Shown piece by piece: positions 6,538 through 23,226 of a stretch of DNA of 64,000 nucleotides. A program made the translations under genes and the position numbers. The notes beneath the pieces were generated by a model that saw nothing but the letters and a program-made list of their open reading frames with translations, ran no database searches and was not told the DNA's origin. Position 1 is the first letter of the stretch. The number at the start of each line of letters is the position of its first letter. This DNA comes from Ghiorsea sp. (GTDB taxonomy: Bacteria; Pseudomonadota; Zetaproteobacteria; Mariprofundales; Mariprofundaceae): contig JALWRX010000123.1 of NCBI GenBank assembly GCA_027080505.1, positions 40,705 to 104,704 on the forward strand, in the 5' to 3' direction.

Positions 6538-6555
6538 TTTGGCATAAGCATTGCT
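6538..6555 (+). promoter_or_regulatory. Sigma-54 (RpoN) promoter of the pilin gene
   Basis: TTGGCATAAGCATTGCT matches the -24/-12 consensus (TGGCAC-N5-TTGCW) with the invariant GG-N10-GC spacing. It lies about 58 bases upstream of the pilin ATG, giving a start site near 6566. Upstream GTGTCA and TGACA boxes at 6464-6469, 6486-6490 and 6495-6500 resemble sites used by PilR-type activators; that part is inference. Confidence 0.75.
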
Positions 6556-6612: not shown

Positions 6613-7203
6613 ATGACAATTGATAAACAAACACAAAAAGGTTTCACACTCATCGAATTGATGATTGTTGTTGCCATCATCGGTATTTTGGCATCGATTG
6701 CGATTCCACAATTCTCTTCATTCCGTGCAAAAGCATTTAACTCATCTGCAATTTCCGATTTGCATGGTGTAAGCTTAGCTCAAGAAGGGCTGTTCACGGA
6801 CTATCAACGTTATGGTTCTACACAAGCTACAGCAGCAACTGCAACACCGACTACTGGTAAAGGTGCATTATTGAATGGTGCGAAAGGTTTTGTAACTGCT
6901 GCTGCAAACCAAGCTATGCCTGTAAATGTAAGTAAAAATGTTCGTATTGTTTCTAACTCTGCGACTTCAGCAAACTCTTATAATGCGGCAACTACAGTGG
7001 CGAAACATGATTCAGGTGATAAAGCGTATGGTCAAGAGTCTGATCAGGCTGGTGTTTTCTTTGCAGTGCCTAAGCAAACAGCTACAGTAACTGCAGGTAA
7101 TGCAGGGGCAACTATTTCAAGCACAAGTACGACTGTACCTGGCTTCCCTGCAACTAATGCTACTATAGACCTTACAACCGCTAAAGGTTGGACATTAATG
7201 TAA
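6613..7203 (+). CDS. pilA: Type IV major pilin (PilA-like)
   Basis: Class III-signal pilin precursor of 196 residues. The prepilin peptidase site is '[19 protein letters not shown]': cleavage after Gly10, mature N-terminal Phe, and Glu5 of the mature protein present. The long hydrophobic alpha-1 helix is followed by a variable Ala/Thr-rich globular part without an obvious terminal Cys pair. AGGAGAT precedes the ATG. A dedicated sigma-54 promoter lies upstream and a strong terminator directly downstream, so it is probably a highly expressed single-gene transcript. The adjacent ABC transporter trio suggests a PilA-PilGHI type locus. It could be a minor pilin, but its promoter and terminator favour the major subunit. 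Confidence 0.9.
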
Positions 7204-16259: not shown

Positions 16260-17801
16260 TTATCGTTTGATTTGCATCAAAGAAGATAACATTTGGTCGG
16301 TGGTTGAGATGGTTTTCGAGTTTGCTTCATAACCACGTTGTACCACAATAAGTTTTACAAATTCACCTGCTAAATCCACATTGGATTGCTCTAAGCCATA
16401 AGGTGTAATCGAGCCCATACCACCATTACCTGGTTTTTCCAAAATAGGTGAGCCAGAGGCAATGGTTTCTTGTTGCAAGTTGTTACCCACATGGTTAAGT
16501 ACGGCATCATTAGGGAATTTTGCTAATGCCACCTGATACAATGAGCGGCGTTGCCCATTGGTGAATACACCAAAAATACGTCCTGTAGAATCTGTTTCTA
16601 ATTTATCTAAGAAGCCTGATGCATAACCATCACGCACGATTTGTCGAGTAGCAAATGTACCTGCCATTTGTACTGTACCATTTAAACCGTCACCAAGAAT
16701 AGCTTGTTGGTCATTGGTGGTGGCATCACCAAAGTTAAAGTTGATGGTTGATACTGCCGCACTGTTCCAAGGAAAGTTGATACCAGGGCCAATTTCAGTG
16801 ACAAGTTCACCTTGGCTACCAAAAATAAGTTGATTGCTCGCTGGTGCTGTGAGTACATTGCCTGCTGTAACATTGGTGCCAGCTGGGAAGGTGCTGGTAT
16901 TTACAACAATGGAGCTACCCAAAGCTGCACTTACAGTTTGACCAGCCAAAACATTAATACCATTAATGGTGACAGCTTGGTCAAATGTTGCATCACCTGA
17001 AATCTCAGTTCCAGCAGGTAGTGGTAGTGCAAGCGCAGGGTTAGTGGTATTGAAATTAGTCGCTGTATTGCCAACAATGACTTGTTGTCCAGGTATGCCA
17101 CCTGCTACATCAGCACCATCGACACCTGCATGCCAACTCCATGTATTATTGGCTTGTTTAACATAATAAATACTGACCGCATGTTGCTGACCTAAGGAAT
17201 CATAAATATTGGCTTCAGCTTTGTAGTGGTAGGTTGCAGCATTGTTGGGGTCAAAGGCAACGCCTGCATTATAGACTGCAGCATTGGAGTCTAAGGTAAC
17301 ACCGACATCAACATTAGTGGTAGGTTGTGCTTGTGATGCTAGTCCGCCAAAGGTAATGTCAGTGATATTACCTGTAGCGTCACCTTGCTCATTGGTTGCC
17401 CAGCCTTGTACCACAAAACCTTGTCCATCAATGAGGTTGGAGTTTTTATCCAAGATAAATGCACCGGCACGCGTATAGTAAGTTTGCCCACTGGCGGGGT
17501 CTTTAAGAGCAAACATACCATTGCCATTAATCGCCATATCTGTTGCGCTGGTGGTGTTTTGAATAGAACCTTGTTGTTGGTCGCGTGTAATCATGCCAAT
17601 GCGCACACCATTACCCACTTGGTTGGCAATGTTGGAGCGTGTTACACCAACGGTTTGTGATAAAACATCAGAAAACACCACGTTTTGAGATTTAAAACCC
17701 AAAGAGTTGATGTTAGCGATGTTATCACCAATGACGCGAACACTTTCACCGAAAGCTGATAGTCCACTGGAACCTGTATAAAGTGCGTTGTAAATACCCA
17801 T
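16260..17801 (-). CDS. flgE: Flagellar hook protein FlgE
   Basis: Structural subunit of the flagellar hook, 513 residues. The N-terminal rod/hook motif 'NALYTGSSGLSAFGESVRVIGDNIANINSLGFK', partly quoted here as 'GDNIANINSLGFK', and the C-terminal 'GEFVKLIVVQRGYEANSKTI' pair into the D0 coiled coil. The central surface domain is Ala/Thr/Asn-rich and variable. Secretion is by the flagellar type III system without a cleaved signal. AGGAGA precedes the ATG. It is last in fliK-flgD-flgE, which all serve hook building: ruler, cap and subunit. Confidence 0.95.
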   Translation of the reverse strand: MGIYNALYTGSSGLSAFGESVRVIGDNIANINSLGFKSQNVVFSDVLSQTVGVTRSNIANQVGNGVRIGMITRDQQQGSIQNTTSATDMAINGNGMFALKDPASGQTYYTRAGAFILDKNSNLIDGQGFVVQGWATNEQGDATGNITDITFGGLASQAQPTTNVDVGVTLDSNAAVYNAGVAFDPNNAATYHYKAEANIYDSLGQQHAVSIYYVKQANNTWSWHAGVDGADVAGGIPGQQVIVGNTATNFNTTNPALALPLPAGTEISGDATFDQAVTINGINVLAGQTVSAALGSSIVVNTSTFPAGTNVTAGNVLTAPASNQLIFGSQGELVTEIGPGINFPWNSAAVSTINFNFGDATTNDQQAILGDGLNGTVQMAGTFATRQIVRDGYASGFLDKLETDSTGRIFGVFTNGQRRSLYQVALAKFPNDAVLNHVGNNLQQETIASGSPILEKPGNGGMGSITPYGLEQSNVDLAGEFVKLIVVQRGYEANSKTISTTDQMLSSLMQIKR

Positions 17802-17830: not shown

Positions 17831-18496
17831 TTAAATTCTTACTTCTGTAACATTGGCAATGCTAGTTGGTGTACCATTTACAATGAGCTGTATGCCTGAA
17901 GGGGTCATACGAACGGCATCAACCACACCTGAACGTTGAATGGATGCAGTTACTTGTTGCCCTGCAGCGTCAAAGGCAGCAATATCAATTTGATAGTCGC
18001 CCACTGCGACAGGGTTGCCGAAATCATCTTTACCATCCCAGTTAAGTTGCTGACTACCCGCTGGCAATGAAGATAAAGACATATTGCGTACAGGTGTGCC
18101 TAAGCTATCGCTGATGGTGATATACACATTGCTCGCATTATTATCCAAGCTGGCACTAAAGGGTTGAGTGCTACCCGTATATTGAATATTACTTTCATTG
18201 ATCATTACGGTATGTCCCAAATATCCTGCAGATGCAGTGTCTAGGTTACCATTGCTACCACCTTGGCTTGCTGTAAGCTGGGCAAGGTATTCATTGGTGT
18301 ATGTTTGTTGTTCAACCATATTAAACTGCGCTAGCTGAGAGGACATTTGCGTAGAATCAGCAGGGTTTAAGGGGTCTTGGTTTTCCATTTGTGCAACAAG
18401 CATTTTCAGGAATACATCTTTAGTACCTAAGTTTTGCTGGCTGCTGGGTGCAGGAGCTGGTTGCGCACCATAATTATTTGAGACGGTTAATGGCAT
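17831..18496 (-). CDS. flgD: Flagellar hook capping protein FlgD
   Basis: Scaffold cap that guides polymerisation of hook subunits. The N-terminal region has the family motif 'LGTKDVFLKMLVAQMENQDPLNPADST' (core 'QMENQDPLNP') and 'QLAQFNMVEQ'. It is followed by an FLG-type Ig/tudor module ('GSQQLNWDGKDDFGNPVAVGDYQI' region, core 'WDGKDDFGN'). 221 residues is typical. AGGAGA ribosome site. Ten bases downstream of fliK and 29 bases upstream of flgE on the same strand. Confidence 0.95.
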   Translation of the reverse strand: MPLTVSNNYGAQPAPAPSSQQNLGTKDVFLKMLVAQMENQDPLNPADSTQMSSQLAQFNMVEQQTYTNEYLAQLTASQGGSNGNLDTASAGYLGHTVMINESNIQYTGSTQPFSASLDNNASNVYITISDSLGTPVRNMSLSSLPAGSQQLNWDGKDDFGNPVAVGDYQIDIAAFDAAGQQVTASIQRSGVVDAVRMTPSGIQLIVNGTPTSIANVTEVRI

Positions 18497-18506
18497 TGTT
18501 CTTCTC

Positions 18507-20174
18507 CTATACTAAGATACTAAGGTGACCTTGGGTTGCGAGGTTCACGCCTATTCGTGTATTTTGTTCGTCATTTGAATGGGTAAGTGTTGTAGCATCT
18601 AAGCTGTTACCTGCTGTGGCACTGTTAGATGCTTGCTGGTTACCACCTTGTTGTTGCCCGCTTTGCTGGTTCATTTGCATGGAACAGCCGCCTAAATCTA
18701 AACCTTGTTGTGCCATGGCTAACCTTAGTTGTGGCATTTGCTGTTCAAGGGCTTGTTTTGAGGCGGCTTGATCAACAGTAAACATGACTTGTATGTGTTT
18801 GGCTTGATCCATTTGTATGGAAACTTGTACTTTACCTAAGTTAGCAGGCTCTAGTTGTAGCTCTAAGGTTGTATTGCCCGTTTTGGCGGACTTTACAATT
18901 TCCAGCATAGTATCTGCGGGGGTAAATGAACGTTGTGACTTATATGCCAATTGAGCTTGGAAATCTAAACCTTTGGCATTTTTATTATCCATTCTTGCGG
19001 AGTCTAATAAAGACATATCGGCATCACGTTGGTTGGAGTTCAAATCCTGTTGTGATGATGTGTTGTTATCAATTGTTGCTATGTTGACAGCACTCGGGCT
19101 GTTCGTTGCGGCAACAGTATTTGCGTTAGTCGCCTGTACTTGTTGGGCTTGGTTGCCAGTACGTTGTTGAATGGCTGCGATGGCAGCTTGACTTGTTTTG
19201 ATACCATCAGTGGTTTGTTCTATGGCATTGTTTACTTGATTACTTTGTTGTGCAGTGATGTGTTGTTCAATTTGTTTGCTTTGCTGAATGGTTAACGGCT
19301 GTTCACCAAGTTTGTTTTGTTTTATATTTTGTGTGCTAGCAGTTAAGTACTCTGGATTTTGCCGCTTCATTTTTTGAGAAGCCTGTTGTTTGTTGCTTGA
19401 AGCTTCAGTTAAAAGCTCTGGTGAAATATTTGAAGTTGTAGCTTGTGATGTTGCACGGTTGACTTGTTTTGCTTGTTGTTCATCGACAGCGCTACCATTT
19501 TTATTGGTATTGATAATCAGTGGCGTAACTTGTACCTCTTGCAAGGATGCAATGGCATCGTTGGCATCAACTTCACTGGTGTTTACAGGAGTATCTAGAG
19601 TTAATGTTGCAGTTATTTTTTTATCAGTAACAAGTGTTTTACCAGCTTGTGTTTCACCAGTTTGAAGCAAGCGATGTTGTTTTTTAGCTTGGTCTAAGAT
19701 GTGTTGTACATTCTTATCGACAGTTTGTGTTTCCTTTGTTTGTACCAAGTTATATTGTGTTTTTTTATTTGTTGTTTGTGTATTGTTGTTTTTCTCTAAA
19801 GTGTGTTTTAAATCCTTATTGGTTGTACTTTTTTTGCCCATGCTGCCTGTATTTTCGGCTTGTTGTAAAATACGCTTGATTTTTTTGTCGATATTTTCTG
19901 TATTGCTGGTTTGGCTTAGGATATGTTGTAAGTTTCTATTTCCTTGTTGATTACTTAAAGGCTGGGTTTTGCCTTCTGCTGTAGGTAAGACTGTATTTTT
20001 ATGGTTAGCTTGTTGCACAGTTTGTTGAATAGAATTCTGGGAAGTACCTTTTTGTAACATAGCCAATAAAGTTGAGAATAAGCTTTTGTTTGCTTTAGAG
20101 CTTTGATGTTTACCTTGGCTGATGCTGTTTGTGCCAGTGCTAGCTTCTGTGGATATGTTATTGGTATGTATCAT
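18507..20174 (-). CDS. fliK: Flagellar hook-length control protein FliK
   Basis: Secreted molecular ruler that sets hook length and triggers the export switch. The C-terminal FliK domain is clear ('LELQLEPANLGKVQVSI' and 'LRLAMAQQGLDLGG'). The first 400 residues are low-complexity Gln/Asn/Thr/Lys-rich sequence, as expected for an extended ruler, and include about five imperfect 18-residue repeats at residues 81-179. The 555-residue length is longer than many FliKs. The ATG has no Shine-Dalgarno, and a sigma-54-like promoter would start transcription one base before it, so the start is the least certain part. First gene of the hook operon. Confidence 0.88.
   Translation of the reverse strand: MIHTNNISTEASTGTNSISQGKHQSSKANKSLFSTLLAMLQKGTSQNSIQQTVQQANHKNTVLPTAEGKTQPLSNQQGNRNLQHILSQTSNTENIDKKIKRILQQAENTGSMGKKSTTNKDLKHTLEKNNNTQTTNKKTQYNLVQTKETQTVDKNVQHILDQAKKQHRLLQTGETQAGKTLVTDKKITATLTLDTPVNTSEVDANDAIASLQEVQVTPLIINTNKNGSAVDEQQAKQVNRATSQATTSNISPELLTEASSNKQQASQKMKRQNPEYLTASTQNIKQNKLGEQPLTIQQSKQIEQHITAQQSNQVNNAIEQTTDGIKTSQAAIAAIQQRTGNQAQQVQATNANTVAATNSPSAVNIATIDNNTSSQQDLNSNQRDADMSLLDSARMDNKNAKGLDFQAQLAYKSQRSFTPADTMLEIVKSAKTGNTTLELQLEPANLGKVQVSIQMDQAKHIQVMFTVDQAASKQALEQQMPQLRLAMAQQGLDLGGCSMQMNQQSGQQQGGNQQASNSATAGNSLDATTLTHSNDEQNTRIGVNLATQGHLSILV
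19638..19934 (-). repeat. Imperfect ~18-residue protein repeats in FliK
   Basis: Within FliK residues 81-179 the pattern hydrophobic-x-H-hydrophobic-L-x-Q...T...KK recurs about five times, for example 'NLQHILSQTSNTENIDKK', 'DLKHTLEKNNNTQTTNKK' and 'VQHILDQAKKQ'. The copies are diverged. They probably extend the ruler. Confidence 0.6.
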
Positions 20175-20239: not shown

Positions 20240-23110
20240 TCACTTATTTGAAGTGGAACTTTTTTCCGTGTTGGCGGTAATGTTTTCCCCAATCACAATC
20301 AGTTCGGCAATATCATCCCTGTTGTACTCCCAAGAGCGCTTAGAAATAGGGTTGCCAAAAGGGTTGATGATAATTTGATGTTGGCGTAGGCAGTGAAAAT
20401 CACCTTCCCTTGGGAACATTTTACGAATCATGTTTTGCATGGGGTCATCCCAAGAAAAAGCATGGTTAAGACGGTAGCCAATCCATATAAAACCTTGTTC
20501 CAATAAGGAGGCATAAAGTGCTTCGGGTTCGTCAGGTAATGTTTGATGAACATCCATAGTGTAGAGCTCTAGCGCATCATTGCTGCCGTCTTCAGACATG
20601 AGATCATGAATAACATGGCGTAATACCCGTTTCATTTGGTACACATCATTGTTTTCTGCAGTGTACATATGGAAGCTAGTGTGGGCGACATAAGCACCAT
20701 AAAATTCATCAGGAACCACAATGTGTACTTCGGTAGGCAAGGTGAACCTGTCCAATTCTTCTTGAAGAAGCCTGGCTTGGTTGCGGTCTGATAATATAGG
20801 GTAAATTTTAGGCTGTGATTGTTCTGTATGAATCATGCTAATGATATGGGATAACATGGTTGAAATCACGGTGTATGGCTCTTGCTCAGATGCTTGGGGT
20901 TGGGACAAAATAATATGTGTAAATGTTTTCACATAATCGCGTAATACTTCCATGTTTGAGAAATCCCAAGTTTGTACTGAAACAGAAATTTTATCGCCTC
21001 CTTTTTGTTCACTCAAACGCCGTTTAAGGTAAACCTTTTCATCCATAAGTTTTTCTTCAGGTAAGTTGTCCAGTAAAACAACTTCGATATGTTGGTAATC
21101 AGGCATTAAACGTTTGAGTAATAAAGGTAAGCTATCTACCCAGCCTGTAATAAGTAAGCGTAGCTCTGTTGCTGGGCGATTTAAACTAAGATGGAAGGTT
21201 TCTGTGGGTTTATGAGGAGAAGTTTCAGGGTGATGTAAAACATAATGCAACTCACCATGCAAAGCATTTTCATTGATGGCAATACCAACAACAGCCTTAA
21301 TCATAGTCTTTTCAGCAGCTGGTAGTTGATAAAGGGGTTGGATTTGCCAGTTATCATCAATGATTGCCAATAAAATAACCCCACGTTTTAGTAAGTCTTT
21401 GGCTGCTTGAATGATATTGGAACTGTGTTGTCCATCTGGGGTAAAAAGTAGCGTTTGCCCATGTTTATGCCTGATTTCGGCAGACCATTCGCAAACTTGC
21501 ATAGCCGATTCTTCTGTTCTTTCAGGAATCATTAACCGGCTAACAACTTGGTCAAAATCACTGTACTGTAGGATGTTTTTAAAAGCGTTGGCACGAAAGT
21601 CTGCGGCAGATAAAATGACAGTTGGTTTGTTGTATTGCCCTTGATTATCCCAGCCGACTTGTAGCATATATTCATGTTCAGGTACCCTAGATTCACTCAT
21701 GCTTGGTATAGCAATGCTTAAATAAATATCAGGGTGCATCTTACGAATAGCTAATAAAGAAAAGAAACTTTCAGATAAGGTTTCAGCGTTACTTTTGTCA
21801 TCAGGTATTAAGACCAAAGCTTGGCGAGCAGCAGGTAGGTTGACACGATTTAAATCTTCAATTTGTTTGCTGTTTCCTGTGCGGTAGCTAACCCATTTCT
21901 CTTCAAGTAGGGTGCTGCTTATTTCGTCATTTTCTTGTAATAAAACTAACTTGAGTTTAGAGAAAGAACGTTCGGATGCTAACCTTAAATGTGCAATAAT
22001 ATAGGGCGCAACATCACTCCAACCAATCATGACCATGTGTCGGGTGACGGCGAGACGTTCATTGCGTAGTTTTGTCATCAAGTCGGAAACAATGCTGGCA
22101 CCAATACCAATAAAGAAAGCGAAGATAAATACACCAATAACAACGGCTACAATAGAGAAGATAGCAATGGATGCATTGTTAGGGTAAGCCACTGAGTTTC
22201 CTGGGTCGGTAAACAGGCGAAAAGCGAACCAAATACGAGCAATCATGCTATCATCTTGAGGGGTTACGCTTCCATCTTGGGTAAAGTCAAAACCAGGTAG
22301 CAAGAACTTACCAAAAATACCTCCAGCAATAGAAATAACGGCAAGGACTAAGACAATCAGATTGATTTCTTGCATAAATTGCCCTTCGCGCATCACATCT
22401 TTTAAGTTGCGAATAATGACTAGCCACGGGCGTAAAAGGCGGACAAGCCGCATCATTCTTAAAGCTCCACCGTAGGGGATAATGGCAAAGGCTGGTATCA
22501 TCACAATGGTTGCAACCATGTCTAGCCACCAAAAAAACCATTCCAGTATTCTTTCTTTGCGTGTCTCAAAGTTCATGTTTCTCATGATAAGGTAGCGCAG
22601 CGATAATTCGACAGAGAAGAAGATAATAATCACCCACATAAGGGTATGAGTGGCAAAGAAAGAAATCATGATGATGAGAGAGGTAAACATACCGTAAGTT
22701 GGTGAATACATGGCACTTTCCAGGTCAAAATAACGGAAAACTCGTAAGGTTCGCATTAAATATACAGCGCGTAAAACACGCACTAAGGCAGCATCTTCTG
22801 CTTGGAAAGGAATATCAAAAATGGTAATTAACAAAGAAGCTACACCAATAATATCCAAGACAAGAAATAAGCCGTCAATTTTTCGATTCAGTGATGTACG
22901 ATAAGGGTTAGTTCGTGTTTTATGTAGCATAATGGAAATACGCGCACCAATTTCCACAACAAAAATCGTAAATAAAATAGCTGCCAACCAAGGCTCATGG
23001 GTAAAAGATAAAGCAACCAAAGCTATCATGAGGAAACCAAATCTTGGGTGCATTAAAATCCATTCAATATGGTAGTATAAAAGGTTTTTATCTAAAGTCC
23101 TGCTTTTCAT
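20240..23110 (-). CDS. CASTOR/POLLUX-type ion channel with tandem voltage-sensor-like domains
   Basis: A 956-residue inner-membrane channel. Residues 20-128 form a four-helix module ending in an arginine-spaced S4 ('VRVLRAVYLMRTLRVFR'). Residues 140-236 form a second one with its own S4 ('LRMMRLVRLLRPW'). Residues 248-340 are two helices around a pore loop with filter 'FTDPGNS', as in CASTOR/POLLUX channels. From 357 on are two TrkA-N/RCK-like regulatory halves ('MVMIGWSDVAPYI'), ending in a family-typical 'IGYRLNHAF...IINPF'. The track starts at 23221; ATG 23110 has AGGAA upstream and begins just before the first helix. It is upstream of fliK and divergent from fxsA. The ion and stimulus are unknown. 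The CASTOR-like pore and RCK part is confident; the tandem sensor is read from sequence. Confidence 0.85.
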   Translation of the reverse strand: MKSRTLDKNLLYYHIEWILMHPRFGFLMIALVALSFTHEPWLAAILFTIFVVEIGARISIMLHKTRTNPYRTSLNRKIDGLFLVLDIIGVASLLITIFDIPFQAEDAALVRVLRAVYLMRTLRVFRYFDLESAMYSPTYGMFTSLIIMISFFATHTLMWVIIIFFSVELSLRYLIMRNMNFETRKERILEWFFWWLDMVATIVMIPAFAIIPYGGALRMMRLVRLLRPWLVIIRNLKDVMREGQFMQEINLIVLVLAVISIAGGIFGKFLLPGFDFTQDGSVTPQDDSMIARIWFAFRLFTDPGNSVAYPNNASIAIFSIVAVVIGVFIFAFFIGIGASIVSDLMTKLRNERLAVTRHMVMIGWSDVAPYIIAHLRLASERSFSKLKLVLLQENDEISSTLLEEKWVSYRTGNSKQIEDLNRVNLPAARQALVLIPDDKSNAETLSESFFSLLAIRKMHPDIYLSIAIPSMSESRVPEHEYMLQVGWDNQGQYNKPTVILSAADFRANAFKNILQYSDFDQVVSRLMIPERTEESAMQVCEWSAEIRHKHGQTLLFTPDGQHSSNIIQAAKDLLKRGVILLAIIDDNWQIQPLYQLPAAEKTMIKAVVGIAINENALHGELHYVLHHPETSPHKPTETFHLSLNRPATELRLLITGWVDSLPLLLKRLMPDYQHIEVVLLDNLPEEKLMDEKVYLKRRLSEQKGGDKISVSVQTWDFSNMEVLRDYVKTFTHIILSQPQASEQEPYTVISTMLSHIISMIHTEQSQPKIYPILSDRNQARLLQEELDRFTLPTEVHIVVPDEFYGAYVAHTSFHMYTAENNDVYQMKRVLRHVIHDLMSEDGSNDALELYTMDVHQTLPDEPEALYASLLEQGFIWIGYRLNHAFSWDDPMQNMIRKMFPREGDFHCLRQHQIIINPFGNPISKRSWEYNRDDIAELIVIGENITANTEKSSTSNK

Positions 23111-23184
23111 AACTATGGTTCCTATGAGTAGTTTATGGTGTTTTTTTAGTGAAAAAGCAATAGTGATGCCACTTTTAGATAGGC

Positions 23185-23220: not shown

Positions 23221-23226
23221 TAGCTT

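Follow-up and report, generated by a model that had tools for sequence, protein, structure and literature searches.

CASTOR of plants is reported to be a Ca2+-selective and Ca2+-activated channel, in which Asp265 of the filter is essential (the D265N substitution abolishes the current) and four transmembrane (TM) helices are predicted before the gating ring (PMC6697748). For a voltage-gated channel acting in bacterial motility there is a precedent in NaVBP (Ito et al. 2004, cited in PMC7041947 and PMC4225499). The genome of M. ferrooxydans PV-1, the first of the class Zetaproteobacteria, has been noted for its very few MCPs, and according to the paper describing it, how the organism adjusts its motility to chemical gradients has yet to be established (PMC3179512).

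The DNA analyzed in this work, a stretch of 64,000 nucleotides (the window), encodes a channel composed of the following parts, the evidence for each being given in brackets:

20240..23110, minus strand: tandem voltage-sensor channel gene, 956 aa (open reading frame and its conservation in 38 orthologues)
22709..23089, minus strand: voltage-sensor domain (VSD) 1, residues 8-134 (hhalign and invariant signature residues)
22730-22792, minus strand: S4 of voltage-sensor domain 1, residues 107-127
22376..22708, minus strand: voltage-sensor domain 2, residues 135-245 (hhalign to VSDs of bacterial VGIC)
22409-22471, minus strand: S4 of voltage-sensor domain 2, residues 214-234
22064..22375, minus strand: pore domain S5-P-S6, residues 246-349 (AlphaFold2 helices and the match of pore plus RCK to two-TM CASTOR-like proteins)
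22253..22288, minus strand: acidic loop of the pore turret, putatively of EF-hand type, residues 275-286, DFTQDGSVTPQD (motif level only)
22196..22210, minus strand: selectivity filter TDPGN, residues 301-305 (D302 and P303 invariant in the 38 orthologues)
21191..22039, minus strand: gating-ring half RCK1, approximately residues 358-640 (Pfam matches below the cut-off and Foldseek matches to Slo/CASTOR rings)
20288..21169, minus strand: gating-ring half RCK2, approximately residues 648-941 (AlphaFold2 secondary structure and Foldseek)

The ATG at 23110 was taken as the start of the 956-aa open reading frame; an alternative ATG at 23221, which would give a longer protein, precedes the sigma-54 promoter and is an improbable start. 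The AlphaFold2 model of the monomer (mean pLDDT 79, pTM 0.74) has ten TM helices, arranged as four helices, four helices and S5-pore-S6, followed by two Rossmann-type halves. This layout and the orthologues (n=38, 44-96% identity) agree with an earlier note on this DNA, which had described two four-helix modules, one pore with the filter TDPGN and two RCK-like halves; the S4 arginines that it listed (R111, R114, R120, R123 and R126; R218, R221, R224, R227 and R234) stand exactly at those positions of the translated frame. Absent from it were the acidic turret loop and the place of the channel gene as the first of the hook operon. Database searches with the protein gave little: with Pfam only RCK matches were obtained, all of them sub-threshold, there was no match in NCBIfam, and phmmer with the single sequence against PDB returned nothing meaningful. 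A profile of 16 orthologues had its best PDB matches in the DMI1 gating ring (E 0.006), BK channels (E 0.0075-0.012) and MthK.

To be voltage sensors the modules should resemble those of known channels, and their profiles (module 1, residues 8-134; module 2, residues 135-246) do so. In hhalign comparisons module 1 matched the VSD profile of bacterial Ion_trans channels with Prob 93.7% (E 1.8e-7) and module 2 with Prob 95.2% (E 2.9e-8), these E-values, like the next, referring to single pairwise comparisons and not to a database search. The two modules matched each other (Prob 96.7%, E 4e-10) and so are regarded as tandem duplicates. The pore, used as a negative control, reached 0.3% against module 1 and 0.6% against the Ion_trans VSD profile. 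The signature F..E...R / D / S4 arginines is complete in both modules of the 38 orthologues: F50, E53, R57 and D86 in module 1 and F165, E168, R172 and D197 in module 2 are invariant, as are R111, R114, R120, R123 and R126 and R218, R221 and R224 (38/38), while R227 is replaced by K in one protein (R in 37/38) and R234 is R in 35/38. Such invariance rules out a chance origin of the arginine pattern. Each S4 helix carries five R/K residues and every other TM helix 0-2. The structural and sequence features of the VSD superfamily (four TM helices, R/K at every third residue of S4, acidic partners in S2/S3 and the S2 Phe) are found twice in one chain. The second of two tandem channel copies at locus L077 passes the Pfam Ion_trans cut-off over VSD2 plus pore (30.7 vs 25 bits). 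When a TM-only model was compared with PDB by Foldseek, KCNQ, Kv and Cav channels came first, with low TM-scores and a non-significant best E of 0.039, and the assignment therefore rests on the profiles and the signature residues. At the level of sequence both N-terminal modules, which the earlier note had called sensor-like, are confirmed as real VSDs homologous to those of bacterial voltage-gated channels.

It might be argued that the modules are relics and that the channel, like plant CASTOR, is gated by ligand only. A paralogue, designated B and described below, has lost the charges at 224 and 227 of its second S4, and sensor function can evidently decay. In the 38 proteins of the window's type (A-type), however, the charges, the counter-charges and the S2 Phe are (nearly) invariant in both modules, and we consider the loss of voltage sensing highly improbable.

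The modules are followed by a pore whose filter, TDPGN, corresponds to the CASTOR sequence AD265S(A)GNHA (PMC6697748), with D302 as the equivalent of D265. The setting of the filter, WWAFLRLTDPG, is common to the channel and to the bacterial CASTOR-like proteins L131 and L132 (W.AF.R..TDPG); the filters of the four bacterial CASTOR-like proteins compared, L130, L131, L132 and L178, read MDAGA, TDPGY, TDPGY and MDPGV, respectively. Between S5 and the pore helix there is an acidic loop of 12 residues with EF-hand spacing, placed outside the cytoplasm by the parity of the helices. D275 is present in all 38 A-type proteins and D286 in 32 of them (E in four); the loop of paralogue B matches PROSITE PS00018 exactly in 5/12 proteins, and in the clade of channels from che loci it is degenerate. 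This motif suggests that the loop may bind Ca2+, and together with D302 it points to a pore probably permeable to Ca2+, or at least to cations. As to Ca2+ selectivity and activation by cytosolic Ca2+ of the CASTOR kind, the filter Asp appears to be the only element in common.

Kinship of the pore and ring with CASTOR is seen in profiles and in folds. Residues 244-956 matched the set L130/L131/L132/L178, whose members have only two TM helices, with Prob 98% and E 1.7e-13 over 507 columns, the match to a generic Kv-RCK set being far weaker. In Foldseek searches the ring was similar to CASTOR/DMI1 rings (6o7c/6o7a/7vm8), with a TM-score by target of 0.69-0.72 for LjCASTOR (6o7c/6o7a) and of 0.69 for MtDMI1, and also to Slo1/Slo2 and GsuK. 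Slo-like_RCK (PF22614) was detected in 10/16 orthologues, at best with E 1.9e-4, which is under the curated cut-off. A D-x-G filter followed by an RCK1-RCK2 ring in a single chain, as in CASTOR/POLLUX proteins, is thus present, whereas the number of TM helices before the ring is ten and not two to four. The Pfam family Castor_Poll_mid (PF06241) was matched neither by the window protein, at E up to 1, nor by 16 orthologues, at E up to 0.1; searches of the window's genome and of the listed Zetaproteobacteria were likewise negative, and for this reason the channel is considered a distant relative of CASTOR/POLLUX and not a member by the Pfam test. The profile match (Prob 98%) and the CASTOR/DMI1 ring folds support the view, already expressed in the earlier note, that pore and gating ring are of the CASTOR/POLLUX type, as far as alignments and models can indicate. 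It had also been remarked there that such channels usually have few TM helices before the pore; this proved correct, bacterial homologues having two and plant ones a predicted four (PMC6697748), and the VSD-VSD-pore-RCK-RCK layout is consequently not the standard one.

The channel gene lies at the head of a flagellar operon, and the genes and site concerned are:

23157..23171, minus strand: promoter-like site of the sigma-54 (-24/-12) type, TGGCATCACTATTGC, with its start 61 bp ahead of the channel ATG
18507..20174, minus strand: fliK, hook-length control (PF02120, E 9.8e-19), 65 bp downstream of the channel gene
17831..18496, minus strand: flgD, hook cap (PF03963, E 2.7e-18)
16260..17801, minus strand: flgE, hook protein (PF07559, E 3.2e-18; PF06429, E 1.3e-16)

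In the window the channel heads fliK-flgD-flgE on the same strand behind the sigma-54 promoter-like site. When 84,980 species genomes were scanned with two motifs of the orthologues, 44 loci were obtained. They belong without exception to Zetaproteobacteria or to MAGs that bear close copies and no label more precise than proteobacteria. Flagellar or che genes adjoin the channel in 31/44 loci, and fliK follows it in 16/44. Ten loci, PV-1 included, have the order fliF-fliG-fliH-fliI-(fliJ), a FlbB/MotE-like gene, the channel and fliK-flgD-flgE (neighbours assigned by Pfam; the FlbB-like one scores under the NCBIfam cut-off); in Mariprofundus the channel has this place between fliFGHIJ and fliK-flgD-flgE. 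The channels associated with che genes, mostly cheY-cheA-cheW, form a monophyletic clade (SH-aLRT 100), and the tandem pair of L077 is found a few genes after fliD-fliS. Outside the 31 loci, L055 and L073 have an MCP nearby. Rather than a single odd protein, the channel represents a family whose loci fall into at least four types.

A sigma-54 site begins 61-105 bp before the channel in 9/9 loci of the window type (channel first, before the hook operon, beside fxsA) and at -70 to -75 in L060/L061, the background of the pattern being 0.05 per kb per strand; the window's genome contains 39 such sites vs 3 for a reversed control pattern. As expected, channel genes within the long fli operon lack a sigma-54 site of their own. 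A second exact site was noted in the window at 6540-6554 (plus strand), about 60 bp before an open reading frame (6613-7203) that carries the methylation motif of type IV prepilins.

The distribution of the channel follows that of flagella. Among 78 zetaproteobacterial genomes 51 have both the channel and FliF, 4 the channel only, 3 FliF only and 20 neither (Fisher p 7.7e-12), and the agreement of 71/78 compares with 55.9 on average and at most 67 in 20,000 within-genus shuffles, p-values which serve as guides only, the genomes being related and some of them incomplete. The two have been lost jointly in seven genera. Loss of a single flagellar cluster would also remove the channel copy of the fli locus; B and the che-locus copies lie elsewhere. 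Two genomes, G023 and G074, are flagellated and channel-free, and the channel is therefore not needed for flagella as such; in these (L175, L176) an MCP gene takes the place after the FlbB/MotE-like gene. The link to motility, which the earlier note had put forward as a possibility from the position upstream of the hook operon, is well supported by synteny, co-loss with FliF and sigma-54 promoters. That a housekeeping channel for K+, Ca2+ or osmotic homeostasis should stand beside motility genes by chance is very unlikely: RCK-gated channels are widespread in bacteria, and ten of the 44 loci have no motility gene in the examined flank (four of them end at or soon after the channel), but such a channel would not account for four separate motility or chemotaxis locus types, co-loss in seven genera and sigma-54 promoters.

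Apart from the A-type channel, the genome from which the window derives encodes the paralogue:

L115:4726-8376 on contig C53 (G000:C53), minus strand: paralogue B

Paralogue B has about 1,130-1,290 aa and about 20% identity to the channel, and retains both modules, the DPG filter and the loop. In C53 and in other genomes it belongs to an operon MCP-B-cheY-cheA-cheW-cheB, with cheR as well where the contig extends far enough, and a sigma-54 site lies about 60 bp before this operon (C53:10717-10731). Its C-terminal domain of about 110 residues, with the pattern WP..D.RLL..L..QV.GS...ALTDLQNIDRVSQRLNNV...RYVMEEER, matches no known family. CheZ was considered for this domain on account of a D-R-V-x-Q motif and the position before cheY, and was rejected as unproven (hhalign Prob 0.4-0.5%, without a Pfam or PDB match). 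Canonical CheZ over the Pfam cut-off was found in 0/78 Zetaproteobacteria, many of which have cheY-cheA-cheW-cheB operons. In the B genes of L121, L124, L126 and L033 long EAVEAVEAV, EVQQEVQQ and VEPKVEPK repeats separate the ring from the C-terminal domain, and assemblies break at these low-complexity repeats. In one genome that lacks the channel, a domain of the B type occurs by itself ahead of cheA (L122:6817-7299, plus strand). Several other stand-alone copies, at contig ends by low-complexity repeats, look like the ends of cut-off B genes, and L122 looks like the only separate gene.

Voltage-sensing phosphatases demonstrate that VSDs are able to drive outputs other than a channel. The proteins could accordingly be imagined as non-conducting sensors, in which VSDs and ring, on sensing voltage or a ligand, act mechanically on chemotaxis proteins, with the C-terminal domain of B as the output; the fusion of this conserved domain to B and its separate occurrence before cheA would fit. 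We regard this as decidedly unlikely, given that the residues of the pore, above all the filter DP(G), are conserved in A and B and that an additional output domain is lacking in the window's own A-type channel.

Nor do we favour a role in ion supply or homeostasis like that of NaVBP, in which the channel would admit the coupling ion of the motor (Na+ or K+) or balance charge, as plumbing and not as a signal. The location in a flagellar operon would agree with it, and block of NaVBP is described as altering tumbling and swimming speed of alkaliphilic Bacillus (PMC4225499). It leaves unexplained, however, the placement of one clade and of the paralogue in cheY-cheA-cheW operons and the presence of a CASTOR-type rather than a NaChBac-type filter, and ordinary Ion_trans-type channels are already present separately in the channel-bearing genomes. 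Ion supply is thus unlikely, and signalling is preferred because of the two separate placements in che operons.

The reading that we prefer, with a probability of roughly 0.55, is that of a cation channel of Ca2+ type, gated by voltage and by ligand, which belongs to the sigma-54 motility regulon and turns a change of membrane potential into a motor signal. The subunits would form a tetrameric cation channel in the inner membrane, each contributing two VSDs (eight per channel), a quarter of the CASTOR/POLLUX-type pore and RCK1 and RCK2 of the gating ring. Membrane potential would move both S4 helices, Ca2+ or another small ligand would set the cytoplasmic ring, and the two inputs would converge on S6, allowing Ca2+ or other cations to pass through the pore. 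With its gene presumably a part of the sigma-54 flagellar and chemotaxis regulon, a change in membrane potential or energy supply could be converted into an ion or Ca2+ signal and further into assembly or switching of the motor, a form of energy taxis. This would suit microaerophilic Fe(II) oxidisers holding their place between O2 and Fe(II). The channel genes in flagellar and chemotaxis operons suggest that in these iron-oxidising marine bacteria an electrical or calcium signal has a part in steering the swimming cell. A bolder proposal, which we hold only tentatively and think rather less probable than its negation, is an electrical branch of chemotaxis in Zetaproteobacteria, in which tandem-VSD Ca2+-type channels would be core to flagellar and Che operons, B would join a channel to a domain acting on CheA-CheY, and membrane potential would set the motor directly.

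The family was found in 56/78 genomes in the search of the class, counting G022 with the C-terminal domain of paralogue B only; in a sample of 399 genomes across phyla full matches were confined to Zetaproteobacteria, with weak RCK-only matches in two others. In the species genomes searched, VSD-VSD-pore-RCK-RCK proteins are found only in this class. Searches of the open-access literature for a single pore with two or tandem VSDs led to nothing but TPC, Hv1 dimers, Kv7/KCNE contexts and similar; the suspicion of the earlier note that two sensors on one pore were undescribed was upheld to that extent, and the architecture is new as far as searched. Two VSDs on one pore would show whether serial VSDs gate jointly, additively or by a division of labour. 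A channel has been wired into the flagellar and chemotaxis operons across a bacterial class in which no canonical CheZ exceeds the Pfam cut-off, and with the family being a bacterial CASTOR/POLLUX relative with built-in voltage sensors, the question whether voltage-gated Ca2+ signals serve bacterial motility becomes directly testable.

Among known channels, CASTOR/POLLUX/DMI1 of the plant nuclear envelope, which conduct Ca2+, and their two-TM bacterial homologues share with the window protein the DPG/DxG filter, its Asp and RCK1-RCK2 in one chain, but none has two VSDs. Slo1/Slo2 (BK-type) channels, the best full-length Foldseek matches, likewise carry VSD, pore and RCK1-RCK2, in this order, on a single polypeptide; they are eukaryotic and differ in having one VSD (plus S0 in Slo1) and a K+-channel filter. 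Bacterial Ion_trans channels of the NaChBac/NaVBP and Kv-RCK types are homologous in the VSD, yet have one VSD per pore, another filter and no CASTOR-type ring. NaVBP of alkaliphilic Bacillus is a voltage-gated channel with a reported role in motility and chemotaxis (Ito 2004, cited in PMC7041947 and PMC4225499), although it is an ordinary one-VSD Nav channel with another pore and without a gating ring. More than one VSD per chain is otherwise met with in TPC, Nav and Cav, where each VSD has a pore repeat of its own (VSD-pore-VSD-pore), whereas in the channel of the window two VSDs are followed by one pore.
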